Source of the DNA: an uncultured Clostridium sp.
GTDB lineage: Bacteria; Bacillota_A; Clostridia; TANB77; CAG-508
Direction: 5' to 3'
DNA: 7,249 bases
NCBI GenBank assembly: GCA_905200315.1
Contig: CAJKKA010000081.1
Location: 1-7,249 of the forward strand
Shown: piece after piece, positions 1 to 7,249 of the stretch
Layout of the letters: every line of letters starts with the position of its first letter
How positions within the stretch are numbered: position 1 is the stretch's first letter
The notes under the pieces: model-generated
What the model was told of the DNA's origin: nothing
The model's database searches: none
Seen by the model: the letters and a program-made list of their open reading frames with translations, nothing else
Made by a program: the position numbers and the translations under genes

Positions 1-1192
1 GACCTAAACCAGTTCCCCCTATATCTCTACTTCTAGCTTTATCTACTCTATAAAATCTTTCAAATATTCTATTTAGAGATTCTTTTGGTATACCTATTCC
101 ATTGTCTTTAAATTCCAATATTATATTCTGTCTATTTTCATCATAATGTTGTACAACTTCTATATGGCCATCTTTAGGCGTGTATTTAATTCCATTGTCT
201 ATTAAGTTTAAAAATATTTGTTTTATATTATCTCTAAATCCATATATGCATACATCTTCATCTTCAAAATTATATGATATTGTTATATTTTTTGATGAAG
301 CTATATATTCTGTAATTTCACAAACTTCTTTAAATACATCAAATAATTTAACTTTTTCATAAGATAAATCTTGGCCATTTTCAATTGAAGAAAGTAATAA
401 TATATCTTCAATTAACCCCTTTAATCTGTTAGATTCTTTTTCGATTATATCTAAAAAATGATTTCTTGTATTTTTATCGATATCATCATTTATTTTTAAA
501 GTTTCTACAAATCCTGTTATTGAAGTGAGAGGAGTTTTTAATTCATGGCTGACATTTGCTACAAAGTCTTTTCTCATATTTTCTAATTTTACAAGCTCTG
601 TTATATCTTCTATATTTATAATAGATCCAATTATTGCATGTTTCGAATCTTGCAAATAAACGGGGTCTATTTTTATTCTATAAACTAAATTATCTTTTAA
701 ATTTAATTCAATTACCTCATTCTGAGTACTCCCTACATACTTTTGAAAAGTTTCTAGTATTTTTTTATCTCCTACAACAAATTTAAAATTTATACCTTCT
801 AAATTTGTTTCTATATCACATTTTAACATTTCCTTAGCTATATCATTTATAAGAAGAATTTTTCCTTTGATATCTATTGCTAAAATTCCATGAGATACAC
901 TTTTTACAATAGATGTCAACTGAAGATGTTTATATTCTACTTCTTCAATTGTACTGTCCATTATTTGAATCATGTAATTGAAGTTTTTCGATAACTCTCC
1001 CAACTCTCCTTTTACATATGTATTAAATCTTGTATGAAATTCTTTATTACTAACTTTTTTAGATACTCTAGTAAATTCTTTTAGATATCTACGTAAAGTT
1101 ACAGTATATCTTATAAGTAATATTGCTAAACCTAATGTAATAAGCATTACAAAGAAGTACACACTACTTACTTGCTGTAAATTCGGGTTCAT
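1..1192 (-). CDS. Sensor histidine kinase, PhoR/PnpS-like (C-terminus cut by window edge)
   Basis: I translated this frame by hand; it gives 397 residues and runs off the left edge. Order of parts: a very short N-terminus, one membrane helix (about residues 11-28), a HAMP-like linker (about 29-80, with GELGELSKNFNYM), a PAS-like segment (about 86-200), a dimerisation/phosphotransfer domain with FVANVSHELKTPLTS (phospho-acceptor His216), then the ATPase domain with N-box NLIDNGIKYT (329-338), G1 box DNGIGIP (363-369), F box FERFYRVD (377-384) and G2 box GGTGLG (392-397), where the window ends. Probably only a few dozen residues are missing. The ATG at 1192 has GAGGT 7 nt upstream, and an in-frame TAG at 1216-1214 rules out a longer N-terminus. 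It lies 17 nt after the response regulator, its evident partner. By family it autophosphorylates on His and passes the phosphate to the regulator. Its signal cannot be read from sequence; a phosphate-responsive role is only a family-level guess. Confidence 0.93.
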   Translation of the reverse strand, partial: MNPNLQQVSSVYFFVMLITLGLAILLIRYTVTLRRYLKEFTRVSKKVSNKEFHTRFNTYVKGELGELSKNFNYMIQIMDSTIEEVEYKHLQLTSIVKSVSHGILAIDIKGKILLINDIAKEMLKCDIETNLEGINFKFVVGDKKILETFQKYVGSTQNEVIELNLKDNLVYRIKIDPVYLQDSKHAIIGSIINIEDITELVKLENMRKDFVANVSHELKTPLTSITGFVETLKINDDIDKNTRNHFLDIIEKESNRLKGLIEDILLLSSIENGQDLSYEKVKLFDVFKEVCEITEYIASSKNITISYNFEDEDVCIYGFRDNIKQIFLNLIDNGIKYTPKDGHIEVVQHYDENRQNIILEFKDNGIGIPKESLNRIFERFYRVDKARSRDIGGTGLG

Positions 1193-1209
1193 ATATATTA
1201 CCTCAACTT

Positions 1210-1893
1210 TTAACTAATTTTATATCCTATTCCCCTAATAGTTTCTATATATTTTTCTCCGTCATTTTCAATTTTTTTTCTTAAATATCTAATATGTACA
1301 TCGACAGTTCTTGTCTCTCCAAAATACTCATATCCCCAAACTTTATCTAGTAAAAAATTACGGGATAAAACTTTGCCTTTGTTTTGAAGAAGTAATTTAA
1401 GTAGGTCAAATTCTTTAATTGTTAAATCGATTTTTTTATCCTTTTTAGTTACTTCATGTTTTATTAAATCCATCCTAATATCTTTTACTGTTAAAACATC
1501 TTCTACTTTGTTTGTAGTCATGTTGTATCTTCTAAGAACAGAATTTATTCTAGCAAGTAATTCTTTAATTCCAAACGGTTTTGTTATGTAATCATCTGCC
1601 CCTTCTTCTAATCCCTTGACCTTATCTCTTTCCATATTTTTCGCTGTTAACATAATAACAGGTGTATCCTTTAAGTCTTCATCTTCTCTTATTTTTTTTA
1701 ATACATCTATCCCACTTATATTTGGCAGCATCCAATCTAAAAGTATAAGATTTGGTTTTAATTCTTTTGCCTTATGGTATCCCTCAAAACTATCTAGTGA
1801 ATAGTCGACAATATATCCGTTCACTTCTAAATTAAATTTTAAAAGCTCTACTATATGCATTTCATCATCTATAACTAGTATTTTTTCCTCCAT
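1210..1893 (-). CDS. Response regulator, OmpR/PhoB family (winged-helix)
   Basis: The 227-residue protein has a receiver domain (about 1-120) followed by an OmpR/PhoB winged-helix DNA-binding domain (about 131-227). In the receiver, the acidic pair is Asp9/Asp10, the phospho-acceptor is Asp53 (LLDWMLPN), the switch Thr is Thr83 (MLTAK) and the conserved Lys is Lys105 (TKPF). The recognition-helix region reads GETRTVDVHIRYLRKKIE and the protein ends with the typical wing GIGYKIS. Length is usual for the family. The start is fixed by AAGGGGGT just upstream; this Shine-Dalgarno overlaps the pgeF stop codon, so the two genes are probably translationally coupled (12-nt gap). The kinase gene follows after 17 nt. 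It resembles PhoB/PhoP/PnpR regulators, but the regulon cannot be deduced, so no symbol is given. Confidence 0.96.
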   Translation of the reverse strand: MEEKILVIDDEMHIVELLKFNLEVNGYIVDYSLDSFEGYHKAKELKPNLILLDWMLPNISGIDVLKKIREDEDLKDTPVIMLTAKNMERDKVKGLEEGADDYITKPFGIKELLARINSVLRRYNMTTNKVEDVLTVKDIRMDLIKHEVTKKDKKIDLTIKEFDLLKLLLQNKGKVLSRNFLLDKVWGYEYFGETRTVDVHIRYLRKKIENDGEKYIETIRGIGYKIS

Positions 1894-1905
1894 AATATTA
1901 CCCCC

Positions 1906-2628
1906 TTACTTTATTTCAATGAAGGTTCCTATTCTCTTTGGTGTTTTTTCATGTTTTCTATATGAGAAAAATCTATCACAATTACAACTTGTGCAAATAT
2001 TCATATTTATTATATTCGACTTTAATACCCCAAATTCTTTTAATATTTGTGTATTTACTTCCCATAAATTAAGATAATATTTTTCATCTCTTATTTCATA
2101 TATTTTTTCATCAGCATTTGGAAGAAGTTTTTCAAACTTATCAATTAAGTCGTAAGAAACTTCATAACAGCAGCTTCCTATAGATGGTCCTATAATTGCT
2201 ATTACATTTTCAGGATTTGTATTATAATTTTCTTGCATAGATTTAAGAGTTTCTTCACATATCTTTCCGTACGTTCCTCTCCAACCAGCATGTGCAAGAC
2301 CTACAGCTTTATTTTCAGTATCTACTAATATAACTGGCACACAATCTGCTGTTAATATTACAAGTGGTACATTTTTTTCATTTGTTATTATTGCATCTCC
2401 ATCAATTATTTGACCTATATTAGTTTTATCTATTTTATTTACTATATTTGAATGTATTTGTTTATTTTTACTTAAATTTTTTAATGTAAATTCATCTTTT
2501 AATACACGATTTATATCATCTAAATTTTTAGCGTCCATATTGGTAGTACTTATAGCTATTTTAACGAAGTCAAGTCCTTCTTTGTTTATTGTCAAGTAAT
2601 CATTTTTATCTATTATAGCTTGTGTCAT
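1906..2628 (-). CDS. pgeF: PgeF / YlmD-YfiH family protein (LACC1-type, Zn-dependent purine nucleoside phosphorylase)
   Basis: The 240-residue protein is a full-length member of the YfiH/DUF152 family, once called multicopper polyphenol oxidase. Signature motifs, in order: QIHS (His59), DGDAIIT (77-83), TADCVP (Cys96), HAGWRG (His113), IGPSIGSCCYEV (146-157) and, near the end, CTSCNCDRFFSYRK. His59, Cys96 and His113 match the zinc/active-site triad of the family. Characterised relatives phosphorolyse or deaminate purine nucleosides; the E. coli member is described as a peptidoglycan editing factor. Which role applies here is open. The protein is expected to be cytoplasmic, as no signal peptide is seen. 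The ATG lies 1 nt after the nrdR stop, and its Shine-Dalgarno (AAAAGGAGA) is inside the last codons of nrdR, a sign of translational coupling. A pgeF homologue (ylmD) also lies close to sigG in Bacillus. Confidence 0.95.
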   Translation of the reverse strand: MTQAIIDKNDYLTINKEGLDFVKIAISTTNMDAKNLDDINRVLKDEFTLKNLSKNKQIHSNIVNKIDKTNIGQIIDGDAIITNEKNVPLVILTADCVPVILVDTENKAVGLAHAGWRGTYGKICEETLKSMQENYNTNPENVIAIIGPSIGSCCYEVSYDLIDKFEKLLPNADEKIYEIRDEKYYLNLWEVNTQILKEFGVLKSNIINMNICTSCNCDRFFSYRKHEKTPKRIGTFIEIK

Positions 2629-2629
2629 G

Positions 2630-3088
2630 TTAATCTCCTTTTTCCATTAAAATATTTTTTAATTCACTTACAAAAGTATTTATATCTTTAAATTGTCTGT
2701 ATACGGATGCAAATCTTACATATGATACTTCATCTATATCTTTTAATTTATCCATTACCATTTCGCCAATTTTATCAGTATTTATTTCACTTATATAGTC
2801 TTTATTTATTTCATTTTCTATATAAGAAATTATACTTTCTATTTGTTCTATTGAAACAGGTCTCTTTTCACAAGATTTTATTATTCCTCTTTTTATTTTT
2901 TCCCTATCAAATACTTCCCTACTGTTGTCCTTTTTTACAACCATTATCGGCGTTGTTTCTATAATTTCATAAGTAGTAAATCTCTTCTTGCAAGATTCAC
3001 ACTCTCTTCTTCTTCTAATAGACTTGCTGTCTGTATGCCTAGAATCAACAACTTTAGATTCTTTATAATTACAATATGGACATTGCAT
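2630..3088 (-). CDS. nrdR: Transcriptional repressor NrdR
   Basis: The 152-residue protein is the normal length for NrdR. It starts with [17 protein letters not shown] and carries a four-cysteine zinc ribbon (Cys3, Cys6, Cys30, Cys33, the second pair in [16 protein letters not shown]), followed by an ATP-cone domain (about 46-136). NrdR senses ATP/dATP through the ATP-cone and represses ribonucleotide reductase genes by binding NrdR boxes; this is family knowledge. No ribonucleotide reductase gene or obvious NrdR box pair is seen in the window, so its targets lie elsewhere. The start at 3088 has AAGGAGG 6 nt upstream. It lies 33 nt after the PRC-barrel gene and its end overlaps the Shine-Dalgarno of pgeF, so it is an internal gene of this operon. 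Confidence 0.98.
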
Positions 3089-3121
3089 TGTTTTCCTCCT
3101 TAGTTAATTAAGATTTTAAAT

Positions 3122-3388
3122 TTAGACATCTATTTGATTTTGGTCAAAGTTTAAATTTGAACCTATACTTACAATAATAGTATCACAACCTATTCTTAAA
3201 ATGTCTTTCCAATATACAGTATCGATTTCGGCCCCTCTATAAAAGAAGTTTCCACTTGAACCTGTTATTGAGAAAGATGATACTTTTCCATTTTCAACAT
3301 CTAAATCTATATCTGTAATAAATCCTAATTTCTTGCCATTTTTTACGTTTATTATTTCTTTTTCCATAATATCTGATATTCTCATCAT
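3122..3388 (-). CDS. ylmC: YlmC/YmxH family PRC-barrel protein
   Basis: This 88-residue protein matches the small YlmC/YmxH sporulation-associated family: it opens with MRISDIMEKEIINVKNGKKLG, then shows FITDIDLDVENGKV and a WKDILRIGCDTIIV strand near the end, the layout of a single PRC-barrel domain. Members are found mainly in endospore formers, but the molecular role is not well defined and I do not infer one. Two ATG codons stand in tandem (3388 and 3385). GGGAGGA at 3396-3402 is 7 nt from the first and 10 nt from the second; the first is preferred on spacing, although family members usually begin MRIS, so initiation at the second is possible. It is the first gene of the left-hand operon and sits downstream of sigG, as ylmC does in Bacillus. 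The symbol is assigned by family and position. Confidence 0.88.
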   Translation of the reverse strand: MMRISDIMEKEIINVKNGKKLGFITDIDLDVENGKVSSFSITGSSGNFFYRGAEIDTVYWKDILRIGCDTIIVSIGSNLNFDQNQIDV

Positions 3389-3402
3389 TGTAAATTCCTC
3401 CC

Positions 3403-3426
3403 TTTTAATAAGCTTGTTTATTAAAA
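3403..3426 (-). repeat. Inverted repeat next to the ylmC ribosome binding site
   Basis: TTTTAATAA and TTATTAAAA are perfect 9-nt complements separated by 6 nt. On the minus strand the hairpin ends right against GGGAGGA, the Shine-Dalgarno of ylmC. The stem is entirely A/T, so it would be weak. It could affect access to the ribosome binding site or may reflect base composition only. Confidence 0.4.
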
Positions 3427-3427
3427 A

Positions 3428-3443
3428 AATTTAACACATTATT
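3428..3443 (-). repeat. Direct repeat copy 2 (AATAATGTGTTAAATT)
   Basis: On the minus strand this 16-mer differs at one position from the copy at 3600-3615 (AATAATGTGTAAAATT). The copies are 172 nt apart in the same orientation, both upstream of ylmC. The function is unknown. Confidence 0.45.
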
Positions 3444-3599
3444 TCTCGGTTTTTGATCTAAAAAATAGCTGTGTTTGTTTAATAAGATTTAAGAAATGCA
3501 ATTACTTAAAGTTTTTTCAAATAATTTTTTTCTTAATATAAGCTTATTATTTACACCTCGAAAAAATTCACTCTGATATAATTATATTCTTATTCTTTT

Positions 3600-3615
3600 A
3601 ATTTTACACATTATT
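3600..3615 (-). repeat. Direct repeat copy 1 (AATAATGTGTAAAATT)
   Basis: This is the upstream copy of the 16-nt repeat described at 3428-3443. It overlaps the -10 hexamer (TAAAAT) of the candidate ylmC promoter. A shorter related string, ATGTGTAAA, also occurs upstream of sigG near 4529-4537. Confidence 0.45.
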
Positions 3616-3628
3616 AAAAAATAATCAA
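3601..3628 (-). promoter_or_regulatory. Candidate SigA promoter for the ylmC-nrdR-pgeF-regulator-kinase operon
   Basis: On the minus strand, TTGATT (3628-3623, 4 of 6 to consensus) and TAAAAT (3606-3601, 5 of 6) are separated by 16 nt. This is the best -35/-10 pair I found downstream of the sigG terminator and upstream of ylmC. Such pairs are common by chance in sequence this A+T-rich, and TATAAT at 3586-3581 is a rival -10 that lacks a good -35. Confidence 0.35.
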
Positions 3629-3640
3629 TTTTTTTCTTAA

Positions 3641-3690
3641 AAAAATAAAGCTACCGTATAGTAAATAATTAATTTACTTATACGACAGCT
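3641..3690 (-). terminator. Intrinsic terminator after sigG
   Basis: Beginning 24 nt past the sigG stop, the minus strand can form a long hairpin: arms of 19 and 18 nt (3690-3672 and 3666-3649), with both outer ends reading AGCT, two G-U pairs, one bulged A and a 5-nt loop TAATT. It is followed by TTATTTTTTT (3650-3641). It separates the sporulation sigma block from the ylmC operon. On the plus strand the same hairpin is followed by AAATTTTTTA, so it could work in both directions, although no plus-strand gene reaches it here. Confidence 0.85.
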
Positions 3691-3713
3691 AAATTTTTTA
3701 AGCATGGTAGTTA

Positions 3714-4487
3714 TTAGATGTATTTTCTCATATTTTTTAGGGCATTTTTTTCTATTCTAGAGACTTGTGCCTGAGAAATTCCAATTTCATCTGCTACCTC
3801 TATCTGAGTTCTTCCCTTATAAAATCTTAAATCAAGAACTAATTTTTCCCTTGAACTCAATTTTTTAATTGCTTCTTTTAAAGCTATCTCTTCTAACCAA
3901 TTTTCGTCTGTATCTTTTTTATCTTGTACTTGATCCATTACAAATATTGCATCTCCATTATCTTGATATACTGGGTCGAATAATGATATTGGATCTTGTA
4001 TTGCATCAAGTGCCATAACTACAGATTCTACTTCCATATCTAATTCTTTCGCTATTTCTGATATTGTAGGTTCTTTTGAATTTGTTCTTATTAACCTTTC
4101 TCTAACTTGTAAGGCTTTGTATGCAATATCTTTTAGAGAACGTGAAACCCTAATTGGATTATTATCCCTTAGATATCTTCTTATTTCACCTATAATCATA
4201 GGTACTGCGTAAGTAGAAAACCTTACATTTTGACTTAAATCAAAGTTATCAATAGCTTTTATAAGTCCAACACATCCTATTTGAAATAAGTCATCTACAT
4301 TTTCTCCTCTGTTGTTAAACTTTTGTATAACGCTTAGAACTAATCTTAAATTACCTTTTACAAACTTCTGTCTTGCGTCCTCATCTCCTTGTTTTATTTT
4401 TACTAATAGCTCTCTCATTTGATCAGCTTTAAATACAGGGAGTTCGGATGTATTTACACCACAAATTTCAACCTTATTTATAATCAT
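3714..4487 (-). CDS. sigG: RNA polymerase sporulation sigma factor SigG (late forespore)
   Basis: The 257-residue protein is full length for SigG. The N-terminus NKVEICGVNTSELPV is diagnostic of SigG. Region 2 spans about 40-110 (DLFQIGCVGLIKAIDNFDLS at 66-85, then VRFSTYAVPMIIGEIRRYLR). Region 3 follows with NPIRVSRSLKDIAYKALQVRERL, and region 4 (about 205-255) ends in the helix-turn-helix TQIEVADEIGISQAQVSRIEK. By family it directs core RNA polymerase to late forespore genes such as those for small acid-soluble proteins and germination proteins. The start at 4487 is set by alignment to the family; GAGAGG lies about 10 nt upstream, slightly distant. It ends with tandem stops (TAA TAA). It lies 89 nt after sigE with no terminator between, so read-through from the spoIIGA promoter is likely; a separate forespore promoter is possible (see 4515-4552). 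Confidence 0.98.
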   Translation of the reverse strand: MIINKVEICGVNTSELPVFKADQMRELLVKIKQGDEDARQKFVKGNLRLVLSVIQKFNNRGENVDDLFQIGCVGLIKAIDNFDLSQNVRFSTYAVPMIIGEIRRYLRDNNPIRVSRSLKDIAYKALQVRERLIRTNSKEPTISEIAKELDMEVESVVMALDAIQDPISLFDPVYQDNGDAIFVMDQVQDKKDTDENWLEEIALKEAIKKLSSREKLVLDLRFYKGRTQIEVADEIGISQAQVSRIEKNALKNMRKYI

Positions 4488-4514
4488 AAATTTCAGTCCT
4501 CTCTTAAAAGATTC

Positions 4515-4552
4515 TATATATGAAATTATTTACACATCATATATTTTTATAC
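4515..4552 (-). promoter_or_regulatory. Possible forespore-type (SigF/SigG) promoter upstream of sigG
   Basis: The minus strand carries GTATA (4552-4548), which fits the -35 of SigF/SigG promoters. Downstream are GTAAATAATT (4533-4524), a partial match to a SigF -10 element but lacking the second G, and CATATATA (4522-4515), which resembles a SigG -10. Spacing from GTATA is 14 nt to the first and 25 nt to the second; an alternative -35 (AATATA) lies 17 nt before CATATATA. None of these is a full consensus. Confidence 0.22.
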
Positions 4553-4576
4553 TTTTAATGAGCACTTATTTCCCTG

Positions 4577-5311
4577 TTAAACAAATTTTTTCATTTCTTT
4601 TTTTAATCTAAAAATTATTTTCTTTTCCAGTCTAGAGATGTAGGATTGAGATATACCAAGGATGTTAGCAACTTCTTTTTGAGTTTTTTCTTTACCTTTT
4701 GTACTTAAACCAAATCTTAATTCCATAATTTGCTTTTCTCTATATGACAATTTATCTAAAGCCATAAATAGTAAATTCTTATCAATTTCTTCTTCAATTA
4801 TTTTATAAATTTCATCATTATCAGTTCCTAATACATCTGATAATAAAAGTTCATTTCCATCTAAATCTACATTTAACGGTTCATCAAAAGATACTTCGGA
4901 TTTCTTTTTATTATTTTTTCTAAGACACATTAATATCTCATTTTCTATGCATCTAGATGCATAGGTTGCCAATTTTATATTTTTGTCCAAATTAAATGTG
5001 TTTACAGCTTTTATAAGCCCTATTGTACCTATAGAAATTAAATCCTCCATATCTATTCCTGTATTTTCAAACTTTCTAGAAATATAAACGACTAATCTTA
5101 AGTTTCTTTCTATTAATATTGTTTTTACATTTTCATCATATTCTAGTTTTTTAAGCAATTCTTTTTCTTCCTCTACTGTCAATGGCGGTGGGAGTACATT
5201 CACACCACCCATATAATAGCAACTATCTGGTTTGATCAAATTTAACTTATTGCATATTTTAATAAATTTCATAAACAATAATCTCTTTAGTTTTTGTACT
5301 TGTAATATCAA
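4577..5311 (-). CDS. sigE: RNA polymerase sporulation sigma factor SigE precursor (pro-SigE)
   Basis: The 244-residue protein is made as an inactive precursor. Residues 1 to about 30 form a basic, hydrophobic pro-sequence, followed by the conserved [14 protein letters not shown] (31-44), near which SpoIIGA cuts. Region 2 includes [39 protein letters not shown] (90-107) and [15 protein letters not shown] (113-127). A SigE-typical stretch [22 protein letters not shown] (141-162) follows, then region 4 with the helix-turn-helix [21 protein letters not shown] (210-230). By family it is the early mother-cell sigma factor. The start is a TTG at 5311, chosen because AAAGGAGGG ends exactly 7 nt upstream; the first internal ATG (residue 14) has only a weak Shine-Dalgarno and would leave an unusually short pro-sequence. 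The gene lies 16 nt after spoIIGA, its processing protease, and the pair is expected to be cotranscribed. Confidence 0.97.
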
Positions 5312-5318
5312 TTAAAAG

Positions 5319-5327
5319 CCCTCCTTT
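5319..5327 (-). promoter_or_regulatory. Ribosome binding site that sets the sigE TTG start
   Basis: AAAGGAGGG directly follows the spoIIGA stop codon and is 7 nt from TTG at 5311. The match to the Shine-Dalgarno consensus is nearly perfect, which is the main reason to accept the non-ATG start. Confidence 0.8.
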
Positions 5328-6155
5328 TTAGTATAATATTCTTGGATTCAAAATTGCACTGTATCCTTCGTCATTAAAATTAGATACACCAAGGATAATA
5401 TTACTTATTTTTTTATTATCTACATCGAGATAATCTGCCTTTATTCCCAAAATCATACCTGCATTATTATCGCCTACATGTTTATAGGGAATTAGCCTAA
5501 CCCTAGATGATATTCTTGGTTCTAAATTCTCGGTTATGCTCTGGATATTTAGGATATCCATTTTATCGAAGTCACAATTTTTTGGTAAAAAATTTTCTAA
5601 AAGACTTGCCTTGACTATTACAACATCATTTTTACTAATTGGATCTTGCAGAAGGTTACCACTATCTAATAAAGCAATACATTCTATATTTTTATCTAAT
5701 ATGCCTATACTTATTTTTTTAGTTATATCATCGATGTGTTTTAATAATCTAAAGTTGTTAACTATTTTTTTTAGTAATTTGCAACTAATATAAGAGCATA
5801 TTATAAAAAAAGATATCGTCATATGACTAATACCTGTAAAATAAATAATAAAATAAGTGCTTCCTGATATAAATATATTTACTAGATAAAAATTAAAAAG
5901 TATCTTTATAAATTCCTTTTTGCTATTTATGTTAAAACAAATTAGAACTATTAGTATGAAAAATATAAATTTAGCCGGCAATGTAAAAAATATTTCTAAT
6001 TCTTTATATACATACATAACACTATAGATGGTTCCTATTACTGCTCCACATATTTGTCGTATTTTTTTTGTGTATATTTTTGCAATATAAGTAGTACAAT
6101 TTATTATAATGTAGTTAATAAATAGGTTCTCCAAAATATAACAATCTAAATACAT
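5328..6155 (-). CDS. spoIIGA: SpoIIGA, membrane aspartic protease that processes pro-SigE
   Basis: The protein is 275 residues from the ATG at 6155, near the usual family length. The N-terminal half (about 1-130) has roughly five hydrophobic segments, beginning MYLDCYILENLFINYIIINC as in SpoIIGA. The C-terminal half is the cytoplasmic aspartic protease domain with LLDSGNLLQDP (catalytic Asp164 in DSGN), then SRVRLIPYKHVG (217-228) and the end GYSAILNPRIL. By family it sits in the septal/mother-cell membrane, dimerises, and is switched on by forespore-secreted SpoIIR. The open frame extends upstream to 6329, but those 58 codons are low-complexity Phe/Lys/Leu sequence covering the putative promoter; the ATG at 6155 has AGAGGAGAA close upstream and matches the family N-terminus. 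Its neighbour sigE encodes its substrate. Confidence 0.95.
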   Translation of the reverse strand: MYLDCYILENLFINYIIINCTTYIAKIYTKKIRQICGAVIGTIYSVMYVYKELEIFFTLPAKFIFFILIVLICFNINSKKEFIKILFNFYLVNIFISGSTYFIIYFTGISHMTISFFIICSYISCKLLKKIVNNFRLLKHIDDITKKISIGILDKNIECIALLDSGNLLQDPISKNDVVIVKASLLENFLPKNCDFDKMDILNIQSITENLEPRISSRVRLIPYKHVGDNNAGMILGIKADYLDVDNKKISNIILGVSNFNDEGYSAILNPRILY

Positions 6156-6233
6156 TATATCTTCTCCTCTTTTTAACTTAATAAGATAATGTATTAAAAT
6201 TATGAATTGTTTTTTAAACTTTTTCTTAAATAT

Positions 6234-6280
6234 ATTATAAGATACTTGCCATAAATAGTTTGTCATTTTGAACAGTCGAA
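6234..6280 (-). promoter_or_regulatory. Candidate Spo0A-activated SigA promoter of spoIIGA-sigE
   Basis: On the minus strand, ATGACA (6266-6261, 5 of 6 to the -35 consensus) and a perfect TATAAT (6239-6234) are 21 nt apart. This mirrors the B. subtilis spoIIG promoter, known for an overlong spacer and dependence on phosphorylated Spo0A. Just upstream, the plus strand reads AGTCGAA (6274-6280, 6 of 7 to the 0A box TGTCGAA), and TGTCATT (6261-6267, 5 of 7) overlaps the -35. The predicted start leaves a leader of about 70 nt before spoIIGA. Confidence 0.6.
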
Positions 6281-6306
6281 TTAAAAATACTTTTTCTAAA
6301 AAAGAG

Positions 6307-6344
6307 CAAAAAAATAGAAAAACCTCCAATATTATTGGAAGTTT
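6307..6344 (-). terminator. Intrinsic terminator after the ftsZ-like gene
   Basis: Beginning 17 nt past the stop, the minus strand forms an 11-bp stem, AAACTTCCAAT with ATTGGAGGTTT (one G-U pair, 3-nt loop AAT), followed by a T-rich tract, TTTTTCTATTTTTTTG. It separates ftsZ transcription from the spoIIGA promoter. Confidence 0.85.
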
Positions 6345-6360
6345 CTCTATATAATTCGAA

Positions 6361-7197
6361 TTATCTTCTTTTATTTCTCAAAAAAGTTGGTATTTCCATT
6401 TCATCATCCCAGTCATCTTGTTGTCTAACTGGTTCTGGAGTTCTTTCAACTTTTGGTTCAATTCTTGGTTCTGGTTCTACAACTGTTTCTCTATGTACAA
6501 CTGGCTTAGGTTCTACCTTAGCAACTGGTGGTATTTCAGTCTTTTTGATTGGTGTTGGCTCCACGAATCCACCTTGAGGAGCTTCATCAAAACCCGTAGC
6601 TATAACTGTTATCATTATTTCATCTTCTAAGTCTTCTCTTATAGATGCCCCGAATATTATGTTTGCATCAGGGTCACATGACTCAGTTATTAAGTTAGAA
6701 GCTGCATTTGCTTCAAATAATGATAAACTTGGTCCTCCTGTTACATTAAGTAACACACCTTTTGCACCTCTTATAGATGTTTCAAGAAGTGGCGATTGTA
6801 TAGCTTCTTTAGCAGCTTCAATAGCTCTATTTTCTCCACTAGCGTTACCTATACCCATGTGAGCTAATCCTTTGTCTTTCATTATAGACGTAACATCGGC
6901 AAAGTCTAGGTTTATAAGTCCTGGAACTTTTATTAAGTCAGATATAGATTGTATCCCTTGTTTTAGCACATTATCAGCTATAGAGAATGCTTCTACTATA
7001 GATGTATTTTTTTGAACTACTTCAAGTAATCTATCATTTGGTATAGTTATTAATGTATCAACATTAGCTTTTAATTCTTCTATACCAGCTTCTGCATTTT
7101 TCATTCTTACTTTTCCTTCAAACCCAAAAGGCTTAGTAACAACACCTACTGTTAAGATGCCTTTTTGTTTTGCTAATTGAGCTACTACTGGAGTCAT
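6361..7197 (-). CDS. ftsZ: FtsZ-like protein lacking the N-terminal GTP-binding region
   Basis: The 278 residues are plainly FtsZ, the bacterial tubulin of the division ring, from just after the GTP-binding signature to the end. It begins [24 protein letters not shown], then has [14 protein letters not shown] (47-60), the core helix, the T7 loop [10 protein letters not shown] (93-102, with the catalytic Asp of the partner-activating loop), the C-terminal domain to about 203 ([20 protein letters not shown]), a Pro/Glu/Val-rich linker (about 204-262) and the C-terminal peptide [11 protein letters not shown] that binds partner proteins. Bacterial FtsZ is normally about 370-390 residues; the first ~110, with the GGGGNN loop and GGGTGTG signature, are absent. 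This is not an edge effect: the ATG has AAAGGAG 5 nt upstream, an in-frame TAG stands four codons before it, and no frame of the 52 nt upstream encodes the missing part. Such a protein should not bind GTP or polymerise alone. It could be a broken gene, a partial second copy, or an assembly fault. Confidence 0.85.
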
Positions 7198-7249
7198 AAT
7201 AGCTCCTTTCTAAATGTTATATTCTTAAACTCTCTTATTTTTATAACAA
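7198..7249 (-). other. Leader upstream of the truncated ftsZ
   Basis: These 52 A+T-rich bases hold a good Shine-Dalgarno, AAAGGAG (7203-7209), 5 nt from the ATG at 7197. Two of the three minus-strand frames contain stops. The third is open for 17 codons ([17 protein letters not shown]) and ends at a TGA overlapping the ftsZ start as ATGA. This may be the tail of an upstream gene or chance; it has no resemblance to the missing part of FtsZ. Confidence 0.5.

Follow-up and report, generated by a model that had tools for sequence, protein, structure and literature searches.

The headless FtsZ frame at the right-hand end of the window (the whole stretch of DNA analysed, 7,249 nt) can be attributed with high confidence to a chimeric contig end at which sequences of two species were fused, either during library preparation or during assembly. 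What looks like a beheaded gene most probably arose as an artefact of sequencing or assembly. Colinearity with Intestinibacter bartlettii ends abruptly at position 7193 of 7249, and 55 of the remaining 56 nt are 86% identical to a Bacteroides gene leader, with weak matches in Intestinibacter-group genomes and an exact donor not found in the collections searched. The original prediction, which considered a second, headless ftsZ copy, a rearrangement or a wrong assembly, is thus best served by its third alternative, since homology stops at 7193 and a foreign-like tail follows.

The truncated ftsZ frame

The frame at 6361–7197 (minus strand) is open and encodes 278 aa, from MTPVVAQ to the C-terminal peptide. 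Its ATG is preceded by AAAGGAG (a putative ribosome binding site) and, further upstream, by an in-frame TAG separated from the ATG by four codons. The frame had been described in these terms from the DNA letters, and the reading-frame and profile results agree with that description. The protein contains a complete FtsZ_C domain (PF12327, positions 1–95 of 95, 127.3 bits). It matches TIGR00065 (ftsZ) over positions 120–330 of 353 with 260 bits, below the curated cut-off of 295.2 bits, and the Pfam Tubulin profile over positions 127–189 of 190. The window protein lacks the complete FtsZ core (the GTP-binding N-terminal half with the GGGTGTG signature), which the type strain of I. bartlettii has at this locus. 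The number of missing residues, predicted at about 110 and as holding most of the GTP site, is 114 when counted against the type strain. Since the alignment to the type-strain locus ends at 7193, its ftsZ does not continue into the 52 nt before the ATG, in keeping with the earlier statement that these lack FtsZ-like coding. A frameshift or short insertion inside ftsZ was rejected, since the missing half is absent from the 52 nt above the ATG, where the window ends.

The native ftsZ locus of Intestinibacter bartlettii

The window was aligned to 16 kb of the chromosome of the type strain, I. bartlettii DSM 16795 (CP102273.1; locus L001). Positions 1–7193 formed a single alignment at 99.65%, in which the differences are 24 mismatches and one gap of 1 nt. 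Read on the minus strand from right to left, the window starts with the C-terminal part of ftsZ, followed by spoIIGA, sigE and sigG, then by a YlmC/YmxH-family gene, nrdR and pgeF, and finally by genes for a PhoB-like response regulator and a PhoR/PnpS-like kinase, the latter cut by the window's left edge. The neighbours of ftsZ stand in the same order in the type strain. A 20-nt exact palindrome at 4945–4964, inside sigE, matches the type-strain locus also in the opposite orientation and is probably due to chance.

The ftsZ part of the window (6361–7193, minus strand), identified by FtsZ profiles and the type-strain alignment, comprises the C-terminal 276 residues, from PVVAQ to the C-terminal peptide, and the stop codon of a gene that is ordinary in the type strain. 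There, ftsZ is complete (390 residues), and its frame includes GGGTGTG and remains open as far as a start 114 residues upstream. Over the 276 residues present the two proteins are nearly identical (identity is printed as 100 for residues 3–278, a value that conceals at least one V/I difference). The window lacks the N-terminal 114 residues, which contain most of the GTP site and are part of one open frame in the type strain. Comparison with close relatives, in line with a check proposed earlier, revealed full-length ftsZ in the type strain and in L002–L004, where the arrangement is the same and no stop interrupts the frame through GGGTGTG to the gene's own start.

A search of four Intestinibacter-group genomes gave a single FtsZ_C match per genome. 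These matches lie in open frames of 398–411 aa, and in none of the four did the search find a second ftsZ beside the intact one. The single match in the type-strain genome is its complete ftsZ. Judged by sequence comparison, the window stretch is the species' native ftsZ locus, without the character of a second copy, because 7.2 kb are colinear with the type strain and the gene is complete there and its sole FtsZ_C match. The idea of a second, headless copy does not fit these observations. A sporulation-related role had also been suggested from the position of the frame, and this gains no support, since spoIIGA, sigE and sigG adjoin full-length ftsZ in the type strain too. From the type strain and the relatives we infer that the sampled strain would likewise carry a complete ftsZ. 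A literature search for I. bartlettii together with FtsZ returned nothing.

FtsZ in related genomes

Genome contigs were scanned with the window protein and the best 80 of 224 relatives were fetched, the top match being I. bartlettii DSM 16795. In all 80, GGGTG[T/S]G is found in the same open frame, no more than 20 residues upstream, a count that is independent of the choice of N-terminal motif. At least 100 open residues extend upstream in 79 of these best 80; the exception (L070) has one TAA inside an otherwise recognisable N-terminus, between the motif and the signature. A stricter N-terminal motif was passed by 61 of the 80 and failed by 19; when the motif was relaxed and looked for within residues 1–60 of the open frame, 78 passed (in L061 it lies just past residue 60). 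A frame beginning at the window's junction point was found in none of the 80 relatives, again the best of 224. In a survey of 71 Intestinibacter-family genomes, 70 of which had a match, all FtsZ_C matches above 100 bits lay in open frames of at least 324 aa.

Resemblance of the tail to a Bacteroides leader

The junction falls at 7193/7194, position 7193 being the final base aligned to I. bartlettii, and the 56 nt beyond it (7194–7249) supply the start codon and ribosome binding site of the apparent gene. Within them, the 55 nt at 7195–7249 (minus strand) resemble the start region of a Bacteroides gene of the nitroreductase family, from the 5' leader with its ribosome binding site to the ATG. 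The match is to a plasmid-collection record labelled Bacteroides finegoldii (NZ_OY725904.1, 30662–30718; 86%, 61 bits, E = 1e-7 against 7.3 Gb), at the leader and ATG of the gene for WP_022274914.1. The BLAST match (query 1–55) ends at the ATG, after which the record enters the nitroreductase, whereas the window enters FtsZ. When the 56-nt tail was aligned to this leader the score was 86, against a maximum of 66 among 2000 base shuffles. The nitroreductases of Parabacteroides distasonis and B. finegoldii are related (71.5%), yet the P. distasonis leader aligns poorly (with one and the same 75-nt query it scores 51, and the B. finegoldii leader 92). Base 7194 is A on the minus strand of the window and G in both I. 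bartlettii and the B. finegoldii record. We conclude that this record is not the exact donor, given the 86% identity and a base 7194 that fits neither partner.

The tail is A+T-rich, like the host. Its matches in the four Intestinibacter-group genomes are weak (best 33.7 bits, E = 0.013). Among the 71 family genomes, six have partial matches of 28–46 nt and at most 42.8 bits, with E values of 2.7e-5 to 7.1e-4 for one genome; this search accepted E values up to 0.001 for one genome and scored only 13 candidates in most genomes. The exact donor was not found in the plasmid collection, viral contigs or phage records. Exact-pattern scans of the viral contigs with two parts of the tail gave no match for either part, and when the same contigs were scanned for the B. 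finegoldii nitroreductase, 17 pattern matches appeared, none of them confirmed as a relative. The phage records yielded weak matches only (44 records; best E = 0.1 among the 20 listed). The end of a mobile element was set aside as a source of the tail, whose sequence resembles a gene leader.

Origin of the join

Most simply, the join would have come about in a sample containing both I. bartlettii and a Bacteroides, through a chimeric molecule in the library or an assembly path wrongly taken. The window would then be I. bartlettii chromosome from the PhoR/PnpS-like kinase gene to ftsZ, and 56 nt from its edge the sequence would switch, in the middle of ftsZ, to the 5' leader of a gene from a different organism, the likeliest being a nitroreductase gene of a Bacteroides sampled together with it. 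A ribosome binding site and an ATG would come with this leader, and the remainder of ftsZ would be left in frame by chance, for which the odds are one in three, producing an apparent gene. A de Bruijn contig of this kind ends at the first k-mer that lies wholly in the other organism's path. An assembler with k = 55 could leave a foreign tail of 55–56 nt where the chimeric path meets that of the other organism. Chimeric metagenome contigs are a known artefact in which sequences of two organisms are joined abruptly, as appears to be the case in the window. The technical origin of the join, the mixed sample and the identity of position 7249 as the contig end are what we infer from this pattern. 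Against the chimera stand the best donor match of only 86%, the base 7194 that fits neither partner, the poor alignment of the P. distasonis leader, the A+T-rich tail and the partial matches in six of the 71 family genomes.

A real rearrangement or transfer in this strain might instead have put a leader like that of Bacteroides in front of the ftsZ C-terminal part, and any headless protein made from it could act on FtsZ filaments by capping or modulating them. The frame open behind an ATG and AAAGGAG is what such an event would leave, but we consider it very unlikely. Here the native ftsZ locus is colinear over 7.2 kb with that of a type strain that has a single FtsZ_C match, so that a rearrangement would break the only copy unless it had been duplicated first. 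The join also lies 56 nt from the window edge and its partner resembles the sequence of another phylum, and neither the 80 fetched relatives (no frame starting there) nor the family survey (no FtsZ_C match above 100 bits in a frame shorter than 324 aa) offers a counterpart. The stronger proposal, that living I. bartlettii carries a true fusion of a Bacteroides leader to the ftsZ C-terminal part and expresses an FtsZ without its GTP-binding half that would modulate the division ring, is more improbable still. We give the same slight chance to a tail that is strain-specific I. bartlettii sequence (an insertion, an inversion or the end of a mobile element) and Bacteroides-like by composition only. 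Its host-like A+T content, the weak partial matches in the family and the exact Bacteroides source not found in the collections searched would suit such a tail. Composition fits poorly with a 55-nt match of 61 bits in 7.3 Gb that has an ATG at the corresponding place and a score above that of all 2000 base shuffles, and the four Intestinibacter-group genomes reach no more than 33.7 bits.

With the chimeric contig end as the preferred explanation, the case illustrates how closely such an end can mimic a new gene form: a foreign leader with a ribosome binding site and ATG stands in frame with the middle of a gene. When an essential gene seems truncated no more than a few dozen bases from the edge of a contig, the first step should be a comparison with the same locus in relatives.

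Other FtsZ-like frames in the family

The survey of the 71 family genomes also brought up two further kinds of frame. Six genomes have an open frame of 249–251 aa with a weak FtsZ_C match (21.5–27.8 bits; cut-off 27). One of these frames is L102 (G008:C1:2274900-2276500, minus strand), and the others are at similar places in G009, G011, G013, G014 and G015. L102 scores 26 bits with FtsZ_C, under the cut-off, and 37.1 bits with TIGR00065 (ftsZ; positions 186–318, cut-off 295.2). Its frame has an FtsZ-like start, IIGIGAEGINIINEV, and no GGGTGTG. By their sequence, the 249–251-aa frames possibly encode a degenerate FtsZ-like protein that lacks a functional GTP site, and they may deserve a look.

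A second FtsZ occurs in seven of the 71 genomes (G020 and G066–G071), encoded by an open frame of 324–332 aa that in G069 is interrupted by one TGA. In the one example read, L103 (G066:C1:2345200-2347200, minus strand), GGGTGTG and the core are kept, and the linker and C-terminal peptide are absent.
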